64,000 bases of DNA. Source: Acidobacteriota bacterium. GTDB taxonomy: Bacteria > Acidobacteriota > Blastocatellia > RBC074. The stretch lies in contig JACPYM010000033.1 of the NCBI GenBank assembly GCA_016196035.1, forward strand, positions 92,027-156,026, given 5' to 3'. Of the stretch, positions 5,397 to 59,747 are shown piece by piece. Positions within the stretch are counted from its first letter, which is position 1. Each line of letters opens with the position of its first letter. The position numbers and the translations under genes were made by a program. The notes below the pieces were generated by a model. It saw only the letters and a program-made list of their open reading frames with translations. It did not search any database and was not told where the DNA came from.

Positions 5397-5678
5397 TGTG
5401 CTGGGACGGCACCGCGCGCGTCAGCAAGCGGCGCAGCAAGCATTGTGCTGGGACAGTACCGCGCGCGTCAGCAAGCGGCGCAGCAAGCATTGTGCTGGGA
5501 CGGTACCGCGCGCGTCAGCAAGCGGCGCAGCAAGCATTGTGCTGGGACGGTACCGCGCGCGTCAGCAAGCGGCGCAGCAAGCATCACCCAGCGGCACAAA
5601 TGCATCGTCTCCGCTGGCTGACGCGCGCGGTACCGTCCCAGGCCAGCTTTTTACGCCAAAGTGCAAACCGCTCGAATA
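5397..5678. repeat. Family C palindromic element with a 47-bp tandem array (4 copies)
   Basis: Four near-identical 47-base direct repeats begin at 5397, 5444, 5491 and 5538; each contains gtaccgcgcgcgtcagcaag or a one-base variant. They are followed by one inverted half at about 5610-5640 and then by gtgcaaaccgctc near 5660, the outer arm seen in other family C copies. Elsewhere in the window (11071, 12290, 20749, 50919, 59559) the element occurs as a single palindrome, so the left arm has been amplified here. Open frames across it are an effect of the repeat and are not genes. Confidence 0.9.
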
Positions 5679-11070: not shown

Positions 11071-11166
11071 GGGGCGGTACCGCGGGCGTCGGCAAGCGGA
11101 GGCTCTGCCCTTGCACTATTCCGCTAGACTTGACGCACCGCTTGCTGACGCGCGCGGTACCGTCCC
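11071..11166. repeat. Palindromic element, family C
   Basis: A single copy: the left arm ggcggtaccgcgggcgtc is slightly degenerate, and the right arm from 11138 contains cttgctgacgcgcgcggtac. It occupies most of the hisF-hydrolase gap. Confidence 0.85.
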
Positions 11167-48161: not shown

Positions 48162-50366
48162 ATGAACGCCTATTTACGCCGTTACCGCGTCGGTGTGGTT
48201 GTGCTGCTCGCGTTGAGTCTGAGCCTGAGTTCGAGTTTAACTGCGCCCGCCTATAGCCAGACCAAGCGCAACATCACCGAGCTGGACTTGTTCAAGTTCA
48301 ACTGGCTTGCCGATCCGCAAATCTCGCCCGATGGCGCGCGCGTCGCGTTCGTCAAGGTCTGGGTGAATCAGAAAACCAATACTTACGATTCAGCATTGTG
48401 GGTGGTGCCGACCAATGCCCAAGCAGGCGGTGGCCCAAACGCCGAGAAGCCGCGGCAATTGACCGCCGGACCGCGCGACACCACGCCACGTTGGTCACCG
48501 GATGGCAAGACGCTGGCGTTCACACGCTCTGCTGAAAAGGAAGGCAAGCCGCAACCGCCGCAAATTTATCTGATGTCGTTTGATGGTGGCGAAGCGCAGC
48601 CATTGACTGAAATGCCACGCGGTGCGGGCGCGTTTGAATGGTCGCCCGACGGCAAGACGATTGCCTTTCAATCCACCGACGAAGGCAAGCCCGAAAAGCC
48701 GATGACCGAGGCCGGCGGCGAGCTGAAAGAGAAAGACAAAGCGCCCGAACGTGTCAGCGATGTGCGCGTCATCAACAAGGCGACCTATCGCTCGAACGGC
48801 CCCGGCTATCTCAATCCGAAAACGCACGCGCATATTTGGACGGTTAGTGTACCGGCGACACTTAGTGAAGTCGCCAAAGCTAAACAACTGACCAAAGGCA
48901 ATTGGGATGAAGGTAGCGTCAAATGGTCGCCCGATGGCACGCGGCTCTATTTCATCGCGCGCCGCGTGGCCGAAGCCTATTACGAACAGCCGCACACCGA
49001 TCTTTATTCGATTGATCTCAACGGCGGCGACGAAAAGAAGGTGCTGAGCTTTGACGGCGGCATGCGCGGTTACGATTTCAGTAACGACGGCAAGCGTATT
49101 TCTTTTGGCGGTTCGCTCTCGACAGTGCCCGTGCTGTCTTATAAACAACCTGACTTGTTTGTCGCTGATAACACGGTCGGCGCGACGGCCAAAAACCTGA
49201 CCGAGAAATACGACTTCGACATCGGCGGCGGCATCGGCGGCGATCAGAGTGCGCCGCGCGGCGGCAGCCCCGGCAGCGCGCTGTGGAGCAAAGACGACCG
49301 CACGTTAATCGTCAATGTCGCTGAACAGGGGCACGCCAACCTGAAACGTATTGACGCGGCCACCGGCGCTGTCACGCCGCTCACGACCGGCGATCATTCC
49401 GTGCAGGCCTATTCGGCCACGCCCGATGCCTCAAAGCTGGCGTTGCTGATTTCGACTTCGGTCAACATCGGCGATTTGTTTCTGCTGGATGCGGCCAGCG
49501 GCAAGCTGACGCAACTGACCGACATCAACAAAGACCTGTTCTCACAACTCAACCTCACGCATCCCGAAGAGTTCTGGTACACCAGTTTTGACGGCAAACG
49601 CATTCAAGGGTGGATTCAGAAGCCGCCCAATTTCGACGCGACGAAAAAGTATCCATTCATTCTCGAAATCCACGGCGGCCCGCACTCGGCCTATGGCTTC
49701 ACCTTCACGCACGAGTTTCAGTGGATGGCGGCGAAGGGCTACGTCGTGCTCTACACCAACCCGCGCGGCTCGACGAGCTATGGGCAGGATTTCGGCAACA
49801 TCATCCAGTACAACTACCCCGGCGACGATCACAAAGATTTGATGGCGGGCGTGGATGAAGTCTTGAAGCGCGGTTATGTGGACGAAAGCAAGCTGGGCGT
49901 GACGGGCGGCAGCGGCGGCGGTGTACTGACGAATTGGGCGGTGGGCCACACCAACCGCTTCAAGGCGGCAGTCTCGCAACGTTCCATCGCTGATTGGGCG
50001 GGTTTCTGGTACACGGCGGATTTCACGCTCTTCCAACCGACCTGGTTCAAAGCCGCGCCCTGGGAAGACCCCGAAGATTTCACCAAACGTTCGCCGCTCA
50101 CTTACATCAAAAACGTCACCACGCCGATGATGTTCATCGAGGGCGAAGCCGATTACCGCACGCCCCCGGCGGATGGCGGCGAGATGATGTTCCGCGCGTT
50201 GAAGTACAAGAAAGTGCCCACGGTGATGGTGCGCTTCCCCGGCGAATCGCACGAGCTGTCGCGGTCGGGCGCGCCCTGGCATCGCGTCGAACGTTTGCAG
50301 CACATCGTGAATTGGTTCGACATTTATTTGCAGGATAAACCGCTCAAGCTTTACGAAGTAGAATAG
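48162..50366 (+). CDS. Exported S9-family prolyl-oligopeptidase-type peptidase
   Basis: 734 aa. A signal peptide ([21 protein letters not shown]) precedes a beta-propeller of WD40/PD40-like repeats ([46 protein letters not shown]). The C-terminal alpha/beta-hydrolase domain has the catalytic triad in order: Ser584 in GVTGGSGGG, Asp664 in EGEADYRTP and His697 in [10 protein letters not shown]. This is the acylaminoacyl-peptidase/DPP-like subgroup, which removes dipeptides or N-acyl residues from peptides. CAAGGAG lies upstream of the ATG. It stands alone between module B and the DGR island. Confidence 0.93.
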
Positions 50367-50403: not shown

Positions 50404-50877
50404 ATGAAATGGAGTAAGTGGCTCGACAATTGGGATATGACCGCGCTCAAGATCAATGCGGCCTTTCTCGAAATGGAATGGAAGCCGCAAGACGAAGACA
50501 AGGCCGCCGCCTGGGCGATGTATATCGAATTGCTTACGCGCATCACGACGCAACCGCTGCCCGACGCGGATGGTGACGAAAAGGCGGCGCTCAACAGCGT
50601 CTATGCGCTATTCCCGCTGACGCGCGAGATCATCAAGGCGAATGGCCGCCACTGCCTTGAATTCACCAAAATCGCCATCGTCGTGTTGAATCAGGTCATT
50701 CGCCCCTTCACCGCCAAATGGCACAAACGGTCGTTGGCGGGCGCGTTCGACAATCCGGCGGATTGCCAGACCTTCCGCGCCGAGTTGACGGCTTTGCAGG
50801 CGGAGTTGCGCAAATACACGCGGATGCTGGCCGATATGGCGGGCGTCGAAGACCTGACGACGCTGGAGCAGGCTTAG
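50404..50877 (+). CDS. Conserved-looking helical protein at the DGR island edge, function unknown
   Basis: 157 aa, no signal or membrane segment. It begins MKWSKWLDNWDMTALKINAAF and has a long helical second half (PLTREIIKANGRHCLEFTKI, RPFTAKWHKRSLAGAFDN, RAELTALQAELRKYTRMLADM). I do not recognise a named domain. A strong GGAGGAG ribosome site precedes the ATG. It is on the same strand as the first TIR-NTPase gene 190 bases downstream, with a family C palindrome between, so it may be an accessory of that system or simply a neighbour. Confidence 0.7.
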   Translation: MKWSKWLDNWDMTALKINAAFLEMEWKPQDEDKAAAWAMYIELLTRITTQPLPDADGDEKAALNSVYALFPLTREIIKANGRHCLEFTKIAIVVLNQVIRPFTAKWHKRSLAGAFDNPADCQTFRAELTALQAELRKYTRMLADMAGVEDLTTLEQA

Positions 50878-50918
50878 CGCGACACGTTCAGATTGAGGTC
50901 TGGGAAAGATCGTGCTTC

Positions 50919-51014
50919 GGGACAGTACCGCGCGCGTCAGCAAGCGGAGACTCAGGACGCACCGCGTTGCGCCAACGTTGACGCGCCGCTTGCTGACGCG
51001 CGCGGTACTGTCCC
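50919..51014. repeat. Palindromic element, family C
   Basis: Single copy with arms gggacagtaccgcgcgcgtc and gacgcgcgcggtactgtccc at its two ends. The outer agagcggtttgca arms seen in other copies are absent. Confidence 0.88.
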
Positions 51015-51068
51015 AAACTCTGACGCCCATACTTTCAACTGCAAGCTGCAAAGGTAGACGCCCCCTCG

Positions 51069-54000
51069 ATGACACAGCCAACTTACGTCTTTCTCTCTTA
51101 TGCCAAAGGCGATCTCGCTGCCGCCAGCGCGTTGGAAGCCGCGTTGCGCGCAGCGGGCTTGCGAGTCTTTCGTGACCGCAGCGACATTCGCCCCAGCGAC
51201 CACTGGCCGCTCAAGATTCATCAGGCGCTGTGCGAATGTGAGCGGATGGTCTTGCTGCTCTCGCCGCACTCGATGCCATATCACAAAGAGACCTTTGCCG
51301 AATGGTTCTTTTTCGAGCAACAGGGCAAACCGATTTTTCCGTTGCTGCTGGCCGATTGCCAGTTGTTTTATCGCCTGCCTTTCACCCAACACATGGACGT
51401 GCGCGGCGGTTTGGATGCCGTTCTGCCGCAGTTGCTGGCGTGCCTGGCTGAACCGGTCGAATCCGCGCCGCCATTGCCGCCCGCCGAAACCATCGCCATT
51501 GTGCCGGATGCCGAAAAACCGGTGGCGCTTGTCGAGGCGCAAGCCGCCCTCGCCGCCGTCGCTGACGCTGCGCCCCAGCCCGTCGTGCTCACTGAAGCCG
51601 AAGCCGAGGCCATCGCCGCGCATCCGCCCGCCGATGTGCGCGCATACAGGCTGTCGCGCGTGGCGGCCTGGTCGTTGCCGCGTTATCAACTCGACCGGCG
51701 TTTCGTCAGTTTGACGCTCACGCTCGATCAGGGCGAAGAGGCGCAGGAACGCTTTGTGCCTGCGCGGCAGATGCGTTTCAACGATTTGCGCGAGGTGTTG
51801 GCGGCGGCTGACACAGACCGCGCGCTGGTGTTGCTGGGCGCGCCGGGCGGCGGCAAATCCACCGTCTTGCGGCGGCTGCAACTCGATCACAGCCTCGATC
51901 GGTTGCGCGACGAACGGGACGAAATCAGTTTTCTGCTGCCGTTGAACAGCTATCCCGCTGATTATCCGCCGCCGCGCCAGTGGCTCAACGCATGCTGGGC
52001 GCAGTTCTATCCGCATCTGCCACCGCTCGAAAGCTGGCTGGCAAACGGGCGCGCGTTGTTGTTGCTGGATGCGCTCAACGAAATGCCGCACCGCGACGCG
52101 GCGGAATACTTCGACGCCGTGGCGCGTTGGCGCGCCTTTGTGCAGGAAGCCGCCGCGCAAGGCAACCGGCTGGTGTTCACCTGCCGCAGCCTCGATTACA
52201 GCGCACGCTTGAGCGCGCCCGAATTGCGTGTGCCCCAGGTGCAGGTGCAGCCGATGGATGACGAACAGGTGCGCGCATTCCTGTTCGCCTATTGTCCGGC
52301 GCACGCCGCGCAGCATTGGGAACCGTTGCGGCGCTCCGCCCAATTCGCGCTCTATCGCACGCCATATTTGCTCAAATTGTTGAGCGATCAACTCACGGCG
52401 ACGGGCAAACTGCCGGCGGGCCGCGCGGCTCTGTTCACAGGTTTTGTGCGGCAGGCGTTGGCGCGCGAAAGCAATGCGCCTTTGTTCCAACCCCTGGGTA
52501 CGCACCGCTTCCAGCGTGCGGAGGTGGCAACAGACACGTCAATGCCGGAGGAGGTTCCCTCGGCATCAGTTCGTCCAATGCCAAGCCTGCACGCTGGAAG
52601 CGGTGCGTACCCAGGTGCGTACCCAGGTTCATCCTCGGACGAATTGCTGACGGAAGACGATCACCTCAAGCTCAATCATCAAACCTGGCGCGACGATTTC
52701 GACTTGCCGGACGACGGCGCGTTGCTGCCCGGCCTGAGCGCGCTGGCGCTGGCAATGCAACGGCAGGGTCAGGAACGGCTGGCCGAAGCCGAGGCCCGCC
52801 GCGTGCTGGCCCAGCCGCGCAGTCGCGATGTGCTGAAAGCCGGGCTTGCGCTCGGCCTGCTCGACAAAGACCTGGCGCGCGCCGAGATCGGATTTTTTCA
52901 CCAATTGTTGCGCGAGTATTTTGCCGCGCGCCAACTGGCCCAGGCACCCGACGCGGCGCTCGCGCACGTCGAGTGGGAAGCGGCCCGCGTCACGCCGTCG
53001 CTGACAGAGACGCTGGCCGGATTGGCCTCCAACGATCCGCTGCCGCCGCTGGCGCAAACCGGTTGGGAAGAAACCTTGCTGACCGCCGCGCCGATGCTGA
53101 GTGATGTGGCCGGGTTCATACGGGAATTGCTGCCGCACAATTTGCCGCTGGCCGGACGTTGCGCCGCCGCGCCCGATGTGACCGTCGGCGCGGCCTTCAA
53201 GCGTGAATTGCAGGACGCGCTCATTCAACGCGCACAGGATTTCAAACGCGCCGATTTGCGCGCGCGCATTGCGGCGGGCGAGGCGCTGGGGCAATTGGGC
53301 GATGCGCGCTTCACCCTGCGCCAGGGCGCGCACGGCGCTTACCTGTTGCCGCCGCTTGTCACCATCGCCGCTGGTGAATATCCCATCGGTTTGAACCAGA
53401 GCGATTACGAAGACGAAACGCCGCAAATCAAAGTGCGCTTGGCGGCCTTTGAGATCGGGCAGTTCCCCGTGACCAATGCCGAGTATGCGCATTTCATCGC
53501 GGCACGAGGTTACGAAGACGAACAATGGTGGGACACGGCGGAAGCCCGCGCCTGGCGCAGTGGCGAGAGTACGGCACAAGGAGAAAAGGGCAGTTGGCGC
53601 GACTTTCGCAAACAGCTTCAGAGTTATTCAGAAGACGAATTGCGCGGAATGGTTCAGACAAACCGTGCCACGCCTGACGAAGTGGATGATTGGTTGGAGA
53701 CGCGCAACTGGTCGGACAAAGAGTTCGAGCAATGGCTTGATGATGAATTTCCTCCGGGTACTTTCTATCGGGAACCGCGATACTGGAATGACGCGCGGTT
53801 CAACCAGCTCGCGCAGCCTGTGGTCGGCGTCTCGTGGTTCGAGGCGCGCGCCTATGGCAAGTGGCTGACAGCGAATGTCGCCGATGGGCGCGACTTTCGC
53901 TTGCCGACCGAATTTGAGTTCGAGGCGGCGGCGCGCGGCCAGGCGGGCAGGCTGTTTCCTTACGGCAACAAATTCGACAAGGAGCGCGGCAATACGTTTG

Positions 54001-54311
54001 AGAGCCACCTGCGGCGCACGACGCCCGTCGGCATCTTTGACAACGCGACGCCTGAAAAGGCTTATGACCTGACGGGCAATGCTTATACCTGGACGCTTTC
54101 GCTTTATGATCAACAACGTTTTGGCTACCGGCAGGGCGATGTGGCAGGGCGCGACGACATTCACGCGACGAACGTTAAGCGTGTCCTGCGGGGCGGCTCG
54201 TGGATCGACGATGGTGGCGTCGCGCGCTCTGTGTACCGCAACGTCAATCTTCCCGGCGTCCGCTTCAACGATTCCGGTTTTCGGGTCGTGGTAGTGCGTC
54301 CCCCTTCTTAG
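51069..54311 (+). CDS. DGR target 1: TIR-STAND NTPase with variable C-type-lectin (FGE-like) domain
   Basis: 1,080 aa. The N-terminal TIR domain (about 5-125: YVFLSYAKGDLAAASALEAAL, AEWFFFEQQGK) has Glu83 at the place of the NADase glutamate (W+4). A NACHT/STAND-type NTPase follows, with Walker A GAPGGGKST (257-265), Walker B RALLLLDALNEMP and LVFTCRSLDY. A palindromic element is inserted in frame at about 476-517. The C-terminus (about 760-1080) is an FGE-sulfatase-like, C-type-lectin-fold domain (VTIAAGEYPIGLN, FPVTNAEYAHFI, VVGVSWFEARAYGKWL, RLPTEFEFEAAAR). Its last part (1040-1078) is variable repeat 1. Likely a ligand sensor whose NTPase and TIR trigger a cell response. No good Shine-Dalgarno sequence precedes ATG 51069. 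Confidence 0.9.
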   Translation: MTQPTYVFLSYAKGDLAAASALEAALRAAGLRVFRDRSDIRPSDHWPLKIHQALCECERMVLLLSPHSMPYHKETFAEWFFFEQQGKPIFPLLLADCQLFYRLPFTQHMDVRGGLDAVLPQLLACLAEPVESAPPLPPAETIAIVPDAEKPVALVEAQAALAAVADAAPQPVVLTEAEAEAIAAHPPADVRAYRLSRVAAWSLPRYQLDRRFVSLTLTLDQGEEAQERFVPARQMRFNDLREVLAAADTDRALVLLGAPGGGKSTVLRRLQLDHSLDRLRDERDEISFLLPLNSYPADYPPPRQWLNACWAQFYPHLPPLESWLANGRALLLLDALNEMPHRDAAEYFDAVARWRAFVQEAAAQGNRLVFTCRSLDYSARLSAPELRVPQVQVQPMDDEQVRAFLFAYCPAHAAQHWEPLRRSAQFALYRTPYLLKLLSDQLTATGKLPAGRAALFTGFVRQALARESNAPLFQPLGTHRFQRAEVATDTSMPEEVPSASVRPMPSLHAGSGAYPGAYPGSSSDELLTEDDHLKLNHQTWRDDFDLPDDGALLPGLSALALAMQRQGQERLAEAEARRVLAQPRSRDVLKAGLALGLLDKDLARAEIGFFHQLLREYFAARQLAQAPDAALAHVEWEAARVTPSLTETLAGLASNDPLPPLAQTGWEETLLTAAPMLSDVAGFIRELLPHNLPLAGRCAAAPDVTVGAAFKRELQDALIQRAQDFKRADLRARIAAGEALGQLGDARFTLRQGAHGAYLLPPLVTIAAGEYPIGLNQSDYEDETPQIKVRLAAFEIGQFPVTNAEYAHFIAARGYEDEQWWDTAEARAWRSGESTAQGEKGSWRDFRKQLQSYSEDELRGMVQTNRATPDEVDDWLETRNWSDKEFEQWLDDEFPPGTFYREPRYWNDARFNQLAQPVVGVSWFEARAYGKWLTANVADGRDFRLPTEFEFEAAARGQAGRLFPYGNKFDKERGNTFESHLRRTTPVGIFDNATPEKAYDLTGNAYTWTLSLYDQQRFGYRQGDVAGRDDIHATNVKRVLRGGSWIDDGGVARSVYRNVNLPGVRFNDSGFRVVVVRPPS
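52493..52615. repeat. Inverted repeat, family E, in frame inside DGR target 1
   Basis: The arms 52493-52517 and 52591-52615 (cctgggtacgcaccgcttcc and on) are perfect 25-bp complements. The final gtgcgtacccagg is repeated in tandem to 52628. The reading frame passes through, adding roughly 45 residues (FQPLGTHRFQRA to SGAYPGAYPG). The same cctgggtacgcaccgc arm occurs at 55826-55866. Confidence 0.88.
54185..54302 (+). other. DGR variable repeat 1 (VR1)
   Basis: 118 bases aligning without gaps to the template at 56056-56173. There are 14 differences in 11 codons, all at template adenines (8 A-to-G, 6 A-to-T). It encodes the end of target 1, from LRGGSW to VVVVRP. Non-adenine positions are identical, which is the DGR hallmark. 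Confidence 0.97.
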
Positions 54312-54331
54312 ACTGAAGCACTGACCACTGT

Positions 54332-54356
54332 TGCCCTGCGACGAAGGAGCAGGGCA
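54332..54356 (+). other. DGR post-VR hairpin 1
   Basis: An 8-bp stem tgccctgc / gcagggca with a 9-base loop (gacgaagga) lies 29 bases after VR1. The whole stretch 54303-54367 matches the VR2 flank with one mismatch. Hairpins just after the VR mark retrohoming targets in known DGRs. Confidence 0.85.
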
Positions 54357-54389
54357 TGAAATTTTTTTTGAAAACAGCATATGCGGTTT

Positions 54390-55469
54390 TCAATCTGGGG
54401 CGGGGCGTTCAAACACCAACCCCTGTCCCAGCACGTGTTCGCGCAAGCCCCAGGTGTCGGCATAGCGCACGTGATTGATCCAGCCTTGCACCGAAGCATC
54501 GAATTCGGCAAAGCTGATCTGGCCGGCGCAATACTCGCTCCAACGGTCGCGCAAACGGCGCGCGAATTTGACGACGTTGCGCGCCTTGACGCGGCGCTGG
54601 GTCGGATAGACCACAAAGCCCAACCACGGGATGCCGTGCGCGCAGGGAATGACCTGGGCAGGCGCGGCATGAACGGTCAGGCGCAATTGGGCGAGGCACT
54701 CAATGACGGCGCGTTTCCATGCATACAACTGGCGCTTGCTGTCGCTGAACAAACAAAAATCATCCACGTAACGCAAATAGGCCGGGCAGCCGAGCGTTTG
54801 CGTGACAAACCGGTCTAACGGGTCGAGATAGACATTGCTCCAAAACTGGCTGGTCAAATTGCCGATGGGCAAGCCGCGCGGACGATTGACCGCGAACAAA
54901 TCATCGCCAGGGAAAAACACCATCTCGTATTCGTCAGCGAGCACGCCCGCGCCGCTCTGAATAAGGCGTTCGCACAGCCACAGCGTCGCGTCATCGGTCA
55001 GCGTCGCGCGCAACAAATCCAGCAGGATGGCGTGATCGAGTGAGGGGAAGTGTTTGACCACATCCAACCGCAGCGCGTAACGAAAGCGCCGGGCAAAATA
55101 CTGCAACCGATCAACCGCGCGATGCGTCCCCTGGCCCACGCGGTTGGCATAAGAGTCGGCGTGGAAGTGCGCTTCAAAGAGCGGCTCGATCAGGTTGCAG
55201 AGCGCGTGATGCACGACGCGGTCGCGGAAGGGCGCGGCGCTCACCCGCCGTTGTTTGGGTTCGTAAATCGTAAAATTGACGTAAGCGCCCGGCTGGTAAG
55301 TGAACGCGGCCAGTTCCGCTTGCAGGTGCAACAACCGGTCGGCGAGTTGATGTTCAAATGCGGCAGCGGCCCCTTTACCGCGTTTGCCGCGCGCCGCTTG
55401 TTGATAGGCCGCCAGCAGATTCGGCCAGGCGCTGATTTGGGAATAGAGAGAACCACGGATGATGTCCAA
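54390..55469 (-). CDS. Diversity-generating retroelement reverse transcriptase
   Basis: 359 aa. Reverse transcriptase motifs are present in order: [73 protein letters not shown] with the SQ typical of DGR enzymes, and [11 protein letters not shown] with the catalytic YVDD at about 233-236. [16 protein letters not shown] and a C-terminal thumb-like helix follow. The start is probably TTG 55469 ([11 protein letters not shown]); no in-frame ATG is near. It copies the template RNA with errors opposite A. It is divergent from avd and converges on VR1 of target 1, an unusual layout. Confidence 0.95.
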
Positions 55470-55815
55470 GGAAAAGCTCAGTGAAATGACGATTCTGACG
55501 CGCTGTTATGATTTATTGGCGTGGCTCTTGCCCAAAGTCGAACGCTTTCCCAAAGCGTACCGCCACACCCTGACGCAGCGTTTGCTGGACGCCGCGCTCG
55601 ATTTTCAGGAGCACCTGTTCGACGCGCAAAGCCAGAGCGGCGCGGCACGGCAAAAACAATTGCGCGCCGCCGATGCGCACCTGAACAAACTCAGGTTGTA
55701 TTTGCGCCTGGCGCATCAATTCGGCTGGCTCAATCACGGGCAATATCAGCACGTCAGTCTCATGGTCGCGGAATTGGGCCGCTTGTTGGGCGGTTGGCTC
55801 AAGGCGGAGGCGTAA
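55459..55815 (+). CDS. avd: DGR accessory variability determinant (Avd), four-helix protein
   Basis: 118 aa, the size of known Avd proteins. The sequence is all helical ([82 protein letters not shown]) with many positive charges for binding RNA and the reverse transcriptase. The W-L-L-P-K-x-E-x-F-P-K segment is family-typical. ATG 55459 or 55462 can be used; the 5' end overlaps the RT start region by 11 bases on the opposite strand. Avd is essential for mutagenic copying in studied DGRs. Here it is encoded against the direction of RT and template. Confidence 0.9.
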
Positions 55816-55825
55816 GCTGGTGACA

Positions 55826-55866
55826 ACCTGGGTACGCACCGCTGGCAGCAGCGGTGCGTACCCAGG
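55826..55866. repeat. Inverted repeat, family E
   Basis: The arms acctgggtacgcaccgc (55826-55842) and complement (55850-55866) follow the avd stop by 10 bases. The outer 15 bases match the element inside target 1. Confidence 0.85.
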
Positions 55867-55869
55867 TCA

Positions 55870-55908
<39 letters not shown>

Positions 55909-56055
55909 CGCGATTGCGCCTTCTTTCAGACTCTTCGCCTCGGTGCGCCGAGCGTACTCGACGCACATTGCCGGAAGCCGCCGCCTTCGTAAAGAAAGCG
56001 GCTGGCTCGTCAACAGCGCCGCCGCCGCTGACCTTTGAAGAGGGACGAAAGGAGT

Positions 56056-56173
56056 GGGACGCACTACCACGACCCGAAAACCGGTATTGTTGTTGCGGTC
56101 GCCGGGTTGATTGATGTTGCGGTACACAGAGCGCGCGTTGTCATCATTGTTGATCCACGAGCCGCCCCGCAGG
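56056..56173 (-). other. DGR template repeat (TR)
   Basis: 118 bases on the minus strand matching VR1 and VR2 except at adenines. Its codons at the variable sites are mostly AAC/AAT (three in a row near 56086-56094), giving Asn-rich translation RGGSWINN and [11 protein letters not shown], typical of DGR templates. It is not part of a gene. Its 3' flank differs from the VR flank and lacks the hairpin. Confidence 0.97.
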
Positions 56174-56248
56174 TGCGTTACAACCGGCCCCACAAGTTGC
56201 CTTGCGCCACGCATCTTAGCCTGCGCTTGGCCCATGTCAAAAAACCAA

Positions 56249-56390
56249 GTAACTGCTCAGCCCCCGGTGCGGCGCGCGTCTCGCGGGCATAGTCAAATGG
56301 GGCGGATTGAAATTGAAGGGCGTCTCGGCCAGCCAGTTTGGTCTGATTTGACGCTTGCCCGCGAGACGCGCGCCGCACCGACTGAGTAGT
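56249..56390. repeat. Long palindrome between TR and VR2
   Basis: The 24-bp perfect arms 56266-56289 and 56356-56379 contain cggcgcgcgtctcgcgggc. Imperfect complementarity continues outwards (gtaactgctcag / ctgagtagttac). It lies upstream of TR in the TR direction, where the template promoter would be expected. Confidence 0.85.
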
Positions 56391-56411
56391 TACAAAACCA
56401 AAAAAATTTCA

Positions 56412-56436
56412 TGCCCTGCTCCTTCGTCGCAGGGCA
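56412..56436 (-). other. DGR post-VR hairpin 2
   Basis: The same 8-bp stem (tgccctgc / gcagggca) and loop as the copy after VR1, 29 bases after VR2 on the minus strand. The T-rich run follows it. Confidence 0.85.
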
Positions 56437-56456
56437 ACAGTGTTCAGTGCTTCAGT

Positions 56457-59231
56457 CTAAGAAGGGGGACGCACTACCACGACCCGAAAACCGGTAAGGC
56501 CGTCGCGGTCGCCGGGAAGACCGAAGTCGCGGCACACAGAGCGCGCGACGTCAACACTGCCGATCCACGAGCCGCCCCGCAGGACACGCCTGTCATTTGT
56601 CGTCAGGTTCTCCTTCCGCGCTTCAAGCTGCGGTTTGTCGTAAGCACTCAAACACCACTCCCACACGTTCCCGCTCATCTCTTCGACGCCATACGGTGAC
56701 GCCCCTTGCGGATAGACGCCCACCGCAGTCGTTTGCCCAATGCTGTTTGCCACATTGCCTTTCGCCGCGTCGTAATCGTTGCCATAAGGATAGACCCGGC
56801 CATCCACACCGCGCGCCGCTTTTTCCCATTCAAATTCTGTCGGCAGGCGCACCTCTTCGCGCCACGCCTTGTCCAACTCTGCCAGCCGCCACGTCAGCCA
56901 GCGGCAAAAGGCGCTGGCTTCGAACCAATTCACCGTGTCGCGCGGATGATTGCCGAATTTGAAAGACTGCTCAGCGGGCTGGCGATGACTGTCATTCGCC
57001 GCCAAGCCCTGCCACCAGCGCGCATCGCCGTAGCCACCGTCATCCACGAAGCACTGATATTGCGCATACGTCACCGGATAGCGGCTGATGAAATAGCGCG
57101 GCAGCGTCAACTTTTGCGGCTTGGCTGCCGATGCATCATTCGCCAAGCCGTACTGAAACTCGCCCGCTGGGATTTCCTTCCATTCAAGGTCGGGCAAACC
57201 ATCACGCACGCCCACGCCGCGCCGCTTGTCCAAACCGGTTTGCCCCAAGGCACGGCCAATGGCGGCGCGTGCGTGCGCATGCGGTTCGCGTTGCACAGCG
57301 GTCAGACGCGGCAGCCAGCGTTCGCGCAACCGTGCGCGTGTCGCCTCAGCCAGGGCCGCGCCGCTGCGCACGATGCACTGCGCGGCGATTTCGGGTTGGG
57401 CGTCGGCCAGCCATTCGACGATGGGCGTGCAATCGTCGCTATACAAACCGGCCAGCAGGATGGCGGCCTCTTCCCAGTTGGTGCGCTCCCACCAACGCGC
57501 GGGGGGCCAGAGGTCGGCGGCGCGCAAACGACCGGCGCGGCGTTCGGCGTCCATAAAGTGCGCGGCGAAATACTCCTGCAATAACTGGTGGCTGAAGGCG
57601 ACCTGCTCGCCCAGATTGAGCAAACTGGCGCTGCCCGCCAAATATAACAAACGGTCAGCCAGAATGGTTTTGGCTTCGGCTAGCGGCAACACGGTTTGCG
57701 CGTTGCCGCTGGCGTTTTGCGCGCGGCGGATTTGCATTTCATAGGCGACGCGCGCCAGCCCGCCGGTGAGCAGGGTTTGTTCCTCAGCGCTCACTTTCTC
57801 GCGTTGCAGCAAGGTGCGCACAAACAGCGCAAAGAGTTCGCCGCGATTGTCGGGCAAATCGCCCTCTTCGGCGTAAACGCTGGTCAGCATCAACAGCATG
57901 TAAGGATTGCGCGCCAGTTCCAGCAGCGTGTGCTGGCCGCGCACCTTCTCACGCCAGACGCGATCTTGTTCGCCCGTCGTGCCGCCATACACATTCGGGT
58001 TTTCTTTGGGAATGTCAGCCGCCGTCCAAAACAACTCGAAGCTTGCGCCCGCCTTTTGCCAGGCATCCCACGTCGCCCGGACTTCGGCGCCGCCCGCCAG
58101 CCGCCAAAACAGCGTTTCGCCCGCGTTGGGCAAATAACCCGTGACGAATTGGCGGATGCGCGGCGGGTCGAGCGGCGTGATGTTGAGGCGGTCAAAGCCC
58201 AGCTCAACCTGGTCGTAATCGAGCACGCGGCACGATACGACCGCCAGCAAGGCGGGGTGCTGATGCGTGGCGAGAAAGCGTTTGACCTCGGCGTATTTGG
58301 CGGCGTGCTGGGCGGCGGGCAATTCGTTGAGGCCGTCGAGCAAGAGCGCGGCACGGCGCGTTTGCAGCAATTCGTCGAGCCGCCCGCCAAGATCGCCCAA
58401 TTCGGCGGCGATGAAATCACGCAGCGTTTGCGCGGGGTCAATCCATTTTTTGAGTTGAATCAACAACGGCAGCGGCGCGGCGGCGTCCTGACGGGCGCGC
58501 TGATCCAAATCCGCCGCCAGTTTGAACAGCGTCGTCGTTTTGCCCGCGCCCGGTTCGCCCAGCAATACGGCGCGTTTGAGGCGGTTGATTTCGGCGACGG
58601 CGTCTTCAAAGCGTTTGGGTTCGTCTTGGGCGCGAAACGAGAACAATTCAAACACCGCCGGCATTTCGGCGGCGCGCCGCTGTTGTTGCGTAACGCCGCC
58701 CAACGGCGTGTATTTGTCGTTGTGGATGATCTGCCGCAGGTTGAGCCGGTCAAGGTAATCGGTTTCGAGCGTGCGCGCGGTGGGCGTGGTTGTGGTGGTT
58801 AGGGGGCGCGGCAAGGCGCTCAATAACCGCGCCACGGCGTTTTCATACGCGCAGTTGAAACAGGCTACGCCCTGGCAATCGAGCAGCAGAAAGTAATCGT
58901 CCGCGGCGGCGAGGTCTTCGGCCAGCAGCGGGATGATGAGTTTCTTTTTCTGGAGCGCGAAAAGAATCTCTTTGCGCACCCAATGGCTTTGCAACGCGGC
59001 GGTCGTCACGATGACGACCAGAGCGTAAGAATTGTTGAGGCCGGTGACGATGGCCTTGATCCATTCGTCGCCGCCCTTGATCGCTTCGGTGTCAATCCAA
59101 CTGGCGTGCCCGGCCTGCCCCAGGTCGTCAATCAGCCGCGCAGCCAGGTCGGCGCTCGTGTGGTGATAGCTGATGAACACCGTCGGGCGGCGTTCGCGCG
59201 CGGGCGTGGCTTGGGTCAAAGGGGAAATCAT
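56457..59231 (-). CDS. DGR target 2: TIR-NACHT NTPase with variable C-type-lectin (FGE-like) domain
   Basis: 924 aa from ATG 59231 (a TTG two codons earlier is possible). The TIR domain (about 15-130: PTVFISYHHTSADLAARLIDDL, SHWVRKEILFALQKKK) has Glu88 at the NADase position. The NACHT NTPase has GEPGAGKTT (225-233), RAALLLDGLNELP and LLAVVSCRVLDYD, then a helical region (VAFSHQLLQEYFAAHF). The C-terminal FGE-like domain (KEIPAGEFQYGLA, RYPVTYAQYQCFV, VNWFEASAFCRWL, RLPTEFEWEKAARG, GNVWEWCLSAYD) ends in variable repeat 2 (884-922). It is clearly diverged from target 1 outside the variable region, so the pair is not a recent duplication. Probable variable sensor with a TIR effector. Confidence 0.92.
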   Translation of the reverse strand: MISPLTQATPARERRPTVFISYHHTSADLAARLIDDLGQAGHASWIDTEAIKGGDEWIKAIVTGLNNSYALVVIVTTAALQSHWVRKEILFALQKKKLIIPLLAEDLAAADDYFLLLDCQGVACFNCAYENAVARLLSALPRPLTTTTTPTARTLETDYLDRLNLRQIIHNDKYTPLGGVTQQQRRAAEMPAVFELFSFRAQDEPKRFEDAVAEINRLKRAVLLGEPGAGKTTTLFKLAADLDQRARQDAAAPLPLLIQLKKWIDPAQTLRDFIAAELGDLGGRLDELLQTRRAALLLDGLNELPAAQHAAKYAEVKRFLATHQHPALLAVVSCRVLDYDQVELGFDRLNITPLDPPRIRQFVTGYLPNAGETLFWRLAGGAEVRATWDAWQKAGASFELFWTAADIPKENPNVYGGTTGEQDRVWREKVRGQHTLLELARNPYMLLMLTSVYAEEGDLPDNRGELFALFVRTLLQREKVSAEEQTLLTGGLARVAYEMQIRRAQNASGNAQTVLPLAEAKTILADRLLYLAGSASLLNLGEQVAFSHQLLQEYFAAHFMDAERRAGRLRAADLWPPARWWERTNWEEAAILLAGLYSDDCTPIVEWLADAQPEIAAQCIVRSGAALAEATRARLRERWLPRLTAVQREPHAHARAAIGRALGQTGLDKRRGVGVRDGLPDLEWKEIPAGEFQYGLANDASAAKPQKLTLPRYFISRYPVTYAQYQCFVDDGGYGDARWWQGLAANDSHRQPAEQSFKFGNHPRDTVNWFEASAFCRWLTWRLAELDKAWREEVRLPTEFEWEKAARGVDGRVYPYGNDYDAAKGNVANSIGQTTAVGVYPQGASPYGVEEMSGNVWEWCLSAYDKPQLEARKENLTTNDRRVLRGGSWIGSVDVARSVCRDFGLPGDRDGLTGFRVVVVRPPS
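56466..56583 (-). other. DGR variable repeat 2 (VR2)
   Basis: 118 bases aligning without gaps to the template. There are 18 differences in 12 codons, all at template adenines; changes include A-to-G, A-to-T and one A-to-C. It encodes the end of target 2. Seven codons differ between VR1 and VR2 where both differ from TR, so the two repeats were mutated independently. Confidence 0.97.
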
Positions 59232-59359
59232 CGGCAATCAATAACGGTTCTAAGTGCTGGCGTAGGCGCGCTGCGACGCGACGAGAGCGCCGCCCGCTGG
59301 GCAGTGGCGCGGCGGCGTGCGCGGAATGTACCCCCGGCCCGTCACTCAAGGCAAGCAAC

Positions 59360-59558: not shown

Positions 59559-59747
59559 GATCGGTTTGCAATTGCGTTTACGGGAGCAGCTTGGGTCGGG
59601 ACGGTACCGCGCGCGTCAGCAAGCGGCGCGTCAAGCTTAGGCCGTGGCCCGAGCCATTCAGGCTCCGCTTGCTAACGCGCGCGGTACCGTCCCACCAGCC
59701 AGGCTCGCCTGACCGGTCACCTTGTAAACTCAATGGCAAACCGGTCT
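59559..59747. repeat. Palindromic element, family C, with outer arms
   Basis: Outer arms gatcggtttgca (59559 on) and tggcaaaccggtc (59734 on), inner arms ggacggtaccgcgcgcgtca and taacgcgcgcggtaccgtcc. Together with the family F copy it fills nearly the whole gap between target 2 and the next gene; 59232-59359 holds nothing I can identify. Confidence 0.87.

Follow-up and report, generated by a model that had tools for sequence, protein, structure and literature searches.

The prototype of the diversity-generating retroelements (DGRs) is that of Bordetella phage BPP-1, and an SQ motif is the mark of the reverse transcriptases (RTs) encoded by these elements. Among cellular elements, the closest description is that of Dore et al. 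2024 (PMC10907252), who report that two targets combining a STAND NTPase with a C-type lectin (CLec) domain are common in DGR clade 5D, some of them with a TIR domain. The same work infers probable trans action of some DGRs from perfect agreement at non-adenine sites, the criterion also used below (DGR 2 for DGR 4 and 5), and puts forward the idea of an antigen sensor, with kin or self recognition raised as an alternative; the diversification of NACHT/TIR-CLec proteins by DGRs, with trans action, is already published there. The main text of that paper does not contain the word Acidobacteri. DGR-linked conflict systems, DGR immunity and DGR ecology are treated in PMC7159879, PMC10053308 and PMC8144416. 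The element described here lies in a stretch of 64,000 nucleotides (nt) of an Acidobacteriota bacterium (assembly GCA_016196035.1, contig JACPYM010000033.1, positions 92,027 to 156,026 of the forward strand), referred to as the window. It is a one-template DGR that probably rewrites four TIR-NACHT-FGE genes and would thereby vary the tip by which NLR-like sensors are predicted to bind their ligands. Two details are new: the pairing of two target classes, A and B, under one template, and an unnamed 157-residue protein, p157, usually encoded beside TIR genes. No description of the A/B pairing was found in titles and abstract openings of the literature on DGRs with TIR/NACHT, STAND/FGE or Acidobacteri and on paired NLRs.

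Open reading frame (ORF), repeat and domain scans revealed a complete cellular DGR in the window, formed by an RT, an accessory variability determinant (Avd), one template repeat (TR) and two targets, T1 and T2, with terminal variable repeats (VRs). From left to right, the genes are arranged as p157 (+), T1 (+), RT (-), Avd (+), TR (-) and T2 (-). The RT (54390-55469, - strand) exhibits an IGNLTSQ motif at residue 202 and a YVDD motif at residue 234. Among solved structures, its top match by sequence is 8ub7 (“Reverse transcriptase”, E 4e-47), presumably the RT of the BPP-1 DGR, and the alignment runs through IGSLTSQ; the RT also matches phrog_1423 of PHROGs, and the NCBIfam group II model stays below its cutoff. 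Avd (55459-55815, + strand) passes the NCBIfam cutoff of NF033474, DivGenRetAVD (94.7 bits, cutoff 80), and matches Pfam bAvd (PF22296) and phrog_3206. The TR (56049-56173, - strand) contains a core, 56061-56172, within which the repeats differ from it at adenines (A) only. VR1 (54185-54309, + strand) is the 3' end of T1, and VR2 (56459-56583, - strand) that of T2. A preliminary description of this DNA, made from the sequence alone, had announced an RT with YVDD and SQ motifs, an Avd, one TR and two VRs forming the C-terminal ends of TIR-NACHT-FGE proteins; motifs, the NF033474 match, repeats and Pfam matches above cutoff bear it out on each of these.

The template and its repeats were compared over the core of 112 nt, in which the TR has 26 A and 86 non-A sites, using a hypergeometric test. 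Every one of the 14 VR1 and 18 VR2 differences from the TR core falls on a template A (P 4e-11 for VR1 and 6e-15 for VR2 under random placement). When the TR was searched against the whole genome, which spans 9.59 Mb in 139 contigs, 11 matches were returned: the TR, VR1, VR2, the ends of two further genes, T3 and T4, and six other TR-like matches. Both T3 (contig C34, L012:8629-11469, - strand) and T4 (contig C84, L011:4840-7830, + strand) encode TIR-NACHT-FGE proteins, their domains confirmed by scan, and their VRs differ from the window TR core at 15 and 14 positions, again all at A. The preliminary description, which counted two targets on one template, was right for T1 and T2 and incomplete: at least four exist, T3 and T4 being on other contigs. 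Pooled over the four VRs, 61/61 core differences fall on template A. Non-A differences as frequent as A ones, which that description had held to speak against its reading, were not seen, and its proposal that the DGR diversifies the C-terminal FGE/C-type lectin ends of TIR-NACHT proteins is supported. All six pairs of VRs share 86/86 non-A core sites, among them each of the 35 non-A sites at third codon positions, and differ from each other at 13-20 of the 26 A sites. In the 300 nt upstream of the VRs, third positions are shared at only 35-54 of 88-93 (39-58%), so the identity of the VRs is explained neither by protein selection nor by recent copying. This pattern is what a single template leaves when it writes in cis and, likely, in trans. 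As the TR matches all four VRs at every non-A core site, the DGR likely rewrites all four genes; going by these comparisons, its action on T1 and T2 is almost certain, and its action in trans on T3 and T4 highly probable.

Over the 125-nt repeat, VR1 and VR2 each display two non-A differences, both outside the core, at the end where all four VRs read CCCCCTTCT and the TR reads CCCACTCCT. A TR/VR asymmetry at the homing end is known from other DGRs, and these differences are read here as such an asymmetry. Hairpins 3' of the VR also have a role in DGRs. Folding predicts one 3' of VR1 (54332-54356, + strand), with an 8-bp stem TGCCCTGC/GCAGGGCA, and one of identical sequence 3' of VR2 (56412-56436, - strand); the hairpins found 3' of T3 and T4 are different ones. 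In the TR, 24 of the 26 core A fall on codon positions 1 and 2, and 16 codons are changeable, with no stop possible and 2.1e14 protein variants.

T3 and T4 are 63% and 54% identical to T2, respectively. Next to T3, contig C34 harbors an Avd gene (77% identical) and a relic template-like repeat, TR2, and a shortened relic template-like repeat lies beside T4 on C84; the RT search of the genome gave no match on either contig. A local template for T3 and T4 was rejected, as the VR of T3 shows 20 non-A differences from the adjoining TR2 and none from the window TR. Among the 8 genomic matches of TR2, those above 80% identity are, besides itself, only the TR-like pieces on C84 and a 43-base piece of the T3 VR. 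The six other TR-like matches mentioned above comprise the two relics and the ends of four FGE genes. The relics (22 non-A differences on C34 and 38 on C84, ungapped) were discarded as targets, being relic templates. The four FGE genes, on C99 (L013), C35 (L014), C64 (L015) and C116 (L016), were discarded with 22-36 non-A differences each, ungapped; they are possibly retired targets. Notably, the hairpin region found 3' of T3 and T4 recurs at the FGE gene on C99.

Both cis targets pass the Pfam cutoffs of TIR_2, NACHT and FGE-sulfatase. T1, of class A, is 1080 residues long (51069-54311, + strand), with Pfam match limits at 51087-51404 for TIR, 51822-52295 for NACHT and 53349-54290 for FGE; T2, of class B, is 926 residues long (56457-59237, - strand), the corresponding limits being 59180-58824, 58571-58131 and 57176-56478. 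The FGE match (PF03781) extends to the C-terminus of the target, where the VR sits. The NACHT domains (PF05729) harbor Walker A (GAPGGGKS/GEPGAGKT) and Walker B (LLLLDALNE/LLLDGLNE) motifs, and the T2 model resembles NOD2, NLRP3 and NLRC4 (best E 1.6e-9, TM-score ~0.3 when normalized by query length). The TIR domain of T2 resembles that of SARM1 by sequence and by model, and T2 matches TvpA (2y3c) by sequence. No Avs model appeared among the PADLOC hits of the targets at E 0.1; T2 gave a weak, partial match to the PADLOC TIR-NLR model (E 0.0052, residues 52-93), and matches to the NCBIfam NACHT protein EruA lie far below cutoff. A 60-nt inverted repeat was observed in the T1 coding sequence at 52493-52615, in a stretch absent from T2-T4, and looks like a repeat insertion translated in frame.

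Variability was assessed in an alignment of T2 with 34 of its 120 listed homologues, T3 and T4 among them. The mean entropy, which is taken between homologues and not between isolates, is 2.98 bits at the 16 mutable residues, 0.54 at the other 21 VR residues and 1.25 over the whole T2 protein. Each of the 16 mutable residues stands at or above the 87th percentile of variability in the T2 family.

T1 and T2 are distant from each other (local score 579, self scores 5657 and 4851), and have at least 495 and at least 474 homologues, respectively, at E 0.001. A quick tree of 46 rows, computed with the VR left out, separates the 21 class A rows from the 23 class B rows (SH-aLRT 100 and 96), the class A row of a Thermoflexales locus (L060) sitting on a long branch. 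The best 120 T1 matches and best 120 T2 matches, own contig left out, were compared by eye and have 16 contigs in common, matched by equal size (the smallest, of 6667 bases, could be chance). All 16 hold one T1-like and one T2-like protein by score, which is partly a result of how they were picked; independently of that choice, two RT-anchored loci, L060 and contig C12 of the related genome G008, hold one class A and one class B target. The VR scaffolds of A and B agree at 0.90 on average within a locus and 0.68 between loci (0/20000 permutations), as computed without aligning indels for the 16 of 19 pairs with a VR readable in both; in four pairs (25001, 220048, 206060 and L060), the scaffold fits its own partner no better than another. 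The distances within class A and within class B correlate (r 0.70, 1/5000 permutations; r 0.51, 27/5000, without L060). T1 and T2 represent two paralogue classes of old standing, found together again in several other loci.

Genome G008, of the same family and a second genus, exhibits the same layout: its contig C12 (L101) has a TIR-NACHT-FGE target on either side of the TR, Avd and RT. The RT (L101:7782-8126) bears an in-frame deletion of its catalytic core that leaves the two ends, while the TR, Avd and both targets are open. The two cis VRs differ from the G008 TR at 10 and 12 positions over 115 nt, all at A. A third target, on G008 contig C34 (L120), matches T2 over its whole length, and its VR shows 12 A and 0 non-A differences from the G008 TR (112-115 nt), as against 13 non-A differences from the TR of G010 and 24 from the window TR. 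This trans VR fits the template of its own genome and not those of others; thus, within one genome, dispersed targets and their template vary in step. In G010, a target on contig C1095 (L119) shows 21 non-A differences from the G010 TR. The single targets of G006 (L121) and G005 (L123), having no TR of their own in the set, were compared with the TRs of G008, G010 and the window, and show at least 11 non-A differences from each. Among 58 relatives searched with the RT, G010 provides the only close full-length match (75%) and G008 a remnant, the remaining matches over most of the RT being at most 49% identical. The closest named relatives of the RT and T2 are from Acidobacteria and Blastocatellia/Blastocatellales metagenome-assembled genomes (MAGs), then from Chloroflexi and others, which makes an Acidobacteriota host likely; close T2 relatives occur in 6 of the 11 genomes of the family, the window genome included. 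Two TIR-STAND targets on one template, regarded as uncommon in the preliminary description, turn out not to be: G008 and Leucothrix pacifica share the layout, L060 has two NACHT-FGE targets, one of them with a TIR domain, and clade 5D of PMC10907252 was introduced above as commonly having two.

The gene preceding T1 (50404-50877, + strand) encodes p157, predicted to fold as a helical bundle (model pLDDT, the predicted local distance difference test, 90.7). The preliminary description delimited the element as 50404..59237; the DGR lies inside these limits, and the ORF that opens them belongs to an unnamed 157-residue family and is not the Avd. An assignment as Avd was rejected, p157 having no Avd, Pfam or NCBIfam match above cutoff and being carried by 1/17 RT-anchored loci, that of a Sphaerotilus MAG (L066), where it stands near the DGR and a TIR just below cutoff. 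Family searches found nothing in NCBIfam, PADLOC and PHROGs, and in Pfam a sub-cutoff match only (E 0.088); nor did p157 match any of the phage records searched. It has 4325 homologues, is single-copy in the window genome and occurs in 4/247 genomes of the phylum, the window genome included, one of the others being weak (E 8e-4). A plasmid survey gave 11 records with a p157 match, of which 9 places were inspected, two S. longwoodensis records and a second Calothrix place being left out. At 8 of the 9, in Photobacterium, Sinorhizobium, Mesorhizobium, two Streptomyces, Rhizobium, Calothrix and Vibrio, a TIR gene lies within ~5 kb of the p157 homologue; none was seen within that distance at the Ruegeria place. 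As a control, three 50-kb stretches of three of these plasmids contain 130 features, of which 3 are annotated as TIR genes, and these 3 form a single cluster. On three rhizobial plasmids (L089, L093, L114), p157 is fused to a patatin-like lipase beside TIR genes, one of them below the Pfam cutoff, and p157 is also found near TIR genes in G099 and G062. Contigs of 29873, 66987 and 86945 bases are common, by equal size, to the p157 and T2 listings; with the T1 listing, no contig besides its own is in common among the matches listed. It is therefore likely that p157 is a TIR partner that happens to precede T1, not a part of the DGR core, and it is probably a partner or regulator of TIR.

Palindromic interspersed repeats lie between p157 and T1 (50924-51009) and beyond T2 (59603-59688). 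They belong to a very high-copy MITE- or REP-like (miniature inverted-repeat transposable element or repetitive extragenic palindrome) family: the repeat GGTACCGCGCGCGTCAGCAAGCGG has 617 matches in the genome with at most 2 mismatches, against 0 for the reversed control. With at most 3 mismatches, 13 matches are counted in the window, at 5408-5634, 11076-11161, 12336, 20777 and the two places just given. A role as borders of the T1-T2 cassette, or of a mobile unit, was rejected given the 617 genome-wide matches, and their position on either side of it is likely incidental. Base composition offers no hint that the cassette was acquired recently, its G+C content being 61.5% against 60.2% for the window, and scans of the window with Rfam (gathering thresholds) and for tRNA found nothing. 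The genome carries two other complete DGRs, with differences counted over 80-90 nt: one on contig C104 (L028), whose FGE target looks secreted (13 differences at A, none elsewhere), and one on contig C91 (L029), with a protein kinase-FGE target (8 at A, none elsewhere). The neighboring peptidase-like gene at 48162-50366 has 72 matches (aligned pieces) in the genome, a large expansion; in G001, a neighbor from the same genus, the contig breaks off within this gene.

In the proposed mechanism, the RT, together with Avd, would reverse-transcribe the RNA of the TR, making errors at A. Each target would then have its VR replaced by the cDNA; T3 and T4, whose own loci had by then lost a functional DGR, would be served in trans. 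The varied FGE/C-type lectin tip would bind a foreign or non-kin ligand, as suggested by the families involved; upon binding, the NACHT NTPase would oligomerize, and the TIR domain would cleave NAD+ or make a signal, leading to cell shutdown. T1 and T2 may be partners, or two chains, of a single receptor. That the targets serve as sensors is fairly likely from their domains, and a NADase output of the TIR and a role in defence rather than kin recognition are each given somewhat better than even chances. A more elaborate proposal, advanced tentatively, is that of a two-chain hypermutated NLR receptor: the tips of an A chain (T1) and a B chain (T2) would be rewritten from one master template, the same template would keep dispersed spare B chains (T3 and T4, and the second B gene of G008) in play after the death of their DGRs, and p157 would be a conserved TIR partner.

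Several observations weigh against these readings. The case for VR rewriting is drawn from sequence comparison within the assembly, and T3 and T4 stand on separate contigs of an assembly of 139, so that they may lie near the RT or far from it. It could be argued that the four VRs match through gene conversion or recent paralogue duplication, and not through reverse transcription in trans, T1 and T2 being the only real targets; T2, T3 and T4 are indeed paralogues, and the relic loci on C34 and C84 attest to past duplication. Gene conversion would, however, even out all sites, whereas the VRs diverge at A sites while agreeing at every other; furthermore, the identity falls off right outside the VR, and G008 repeats the pattern with a different TR. 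This explanation is accordingly held to be very improbable. A relic with an inactive RT and frozen VRs is also unlikely, if less so. Relatives show decay (G008 has lost its RT core, and G270 has an RT fragment), no RT match is present on the T3 and T4 contigs, and the G008 VRs still fit their TR despite the broken RT, which implies that a perfect fit can outlast the enzyme and is no proof of present activity. In the window, by contrast, RT, Avd, TR and targets are all open, and the four VR cores show no non-A drift.

The function of the targets calls for a similar weighing. Diversified proteins might serve kin or self recognition, comparable to fungal heterokaryon incompatibility, rather than phage defence: this alternative, raised in PMC10907252, fits dense or aggregated growth, and no result ties the locus to phages. 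Nothing direct speaks either way; the TIR-NACHT architecture resembles that of NLRs, and relatives of p157 have TIR and TIR-WD40/TPR genes around them, in surroundings resembling defence loci. Kin recognition is regarded as the less probable role. About as doubtful is the idea that the TIR domains are scaffolds and not NADases, signaling through another effector. The NADase glutamate put forward in the preliminary description is clear in T2, where E90 aligns with SARM1 and is invariant in 35 homologues. It is less sure in T1, where MAFFT aligns a Glu without the neighboring Trp of the TIR motif, and where the TIR domain gives weak matches to two PDB sequences only, ending short of the Glu region. 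The p157-patatin-like lipase fusions of rhizobial plasmids also hint at other effectors in TIR loci. As for the ligand-binding tip, the FGE end of the T2 model (residues 810-926) has a pLDDT below 50, and the varied residues are not placeable on the fold. The two-chain proposal meets further difficulties. A universal A+B pairing is rejected by L. pacifica (L065), which has B+B, and by other loci: in L067, a B-like target is combined with an nSTAND1 target, one target was found in L054, and G270 has a class A target, an RT fragment and an Avd with no class B in the 19.9 kb fetched; the G317 contig is too short to judge. Close class A relatives occur in at least 3 of 396 genomes of the phylum, the window genome included, a lower bound for which two candidates per genome were scored.

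If the DGR is active, one template would tune several NLR-like receptors at once, with ~2e14 tips per gene and no stops. The locus yields checkable predictions, namely A-only change of the VRs in cis and in trans and a two-partner receptor; the two-chain proposal, if true, would make it the bacterial equivalent of receptors that are paired and diversified somatically, which would be new. The p157 family, being common, could help explain how bacterial TIR systems assemble or stay restrained.

Among described systems, DGR 3 and DGR 6 of Thiohalocapsa PB-PSB1, of clade 5D (PMC10907252), resemble this element in combining an RT and a TR with two targets in which a STAND NTPase sits centrally and a CLec/FGE domain at the C-terminus, a likeness that rests on target architecture. 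Unlike the clade 5D examples described there, the present genome has four TIR-NACHT-FGE targets, the cis targets come from two old, separately conserved classes, and an extra 157-residue TIR-associated gene is present. The element of L. pacifica (NZ_QGKM01000039) is also close, with an RT 63% identical, an Avd, one TR, A-only differences and likewise two targets, of TIR- or SEFIR-NACHT-FGE architecture; it belongs to another phylum, and its targets both fall in the class B branch. The BPP-1 DGR shares the RT motifs, Avd, A-specific mutagenesis and the hairpin 3' of the VR, whereas the window element is cellular and has several targets, which are NLR-like and not tail-fibre proteins. Avs and other antiviral STAND proteins show the same succession of effector, STAND NTPase and C-terminal sensor, but the predicted sensor here is a hypermutated FGE/CLec domain and no avs model was matched. 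Paired plant NLRs, finally, are two NLR-like genes of different class at one locus. The window locus likewise keeps two NLR-like classes together, and, unlike in the plant pairs, both of its members end in a part apparently rewritten from one template.

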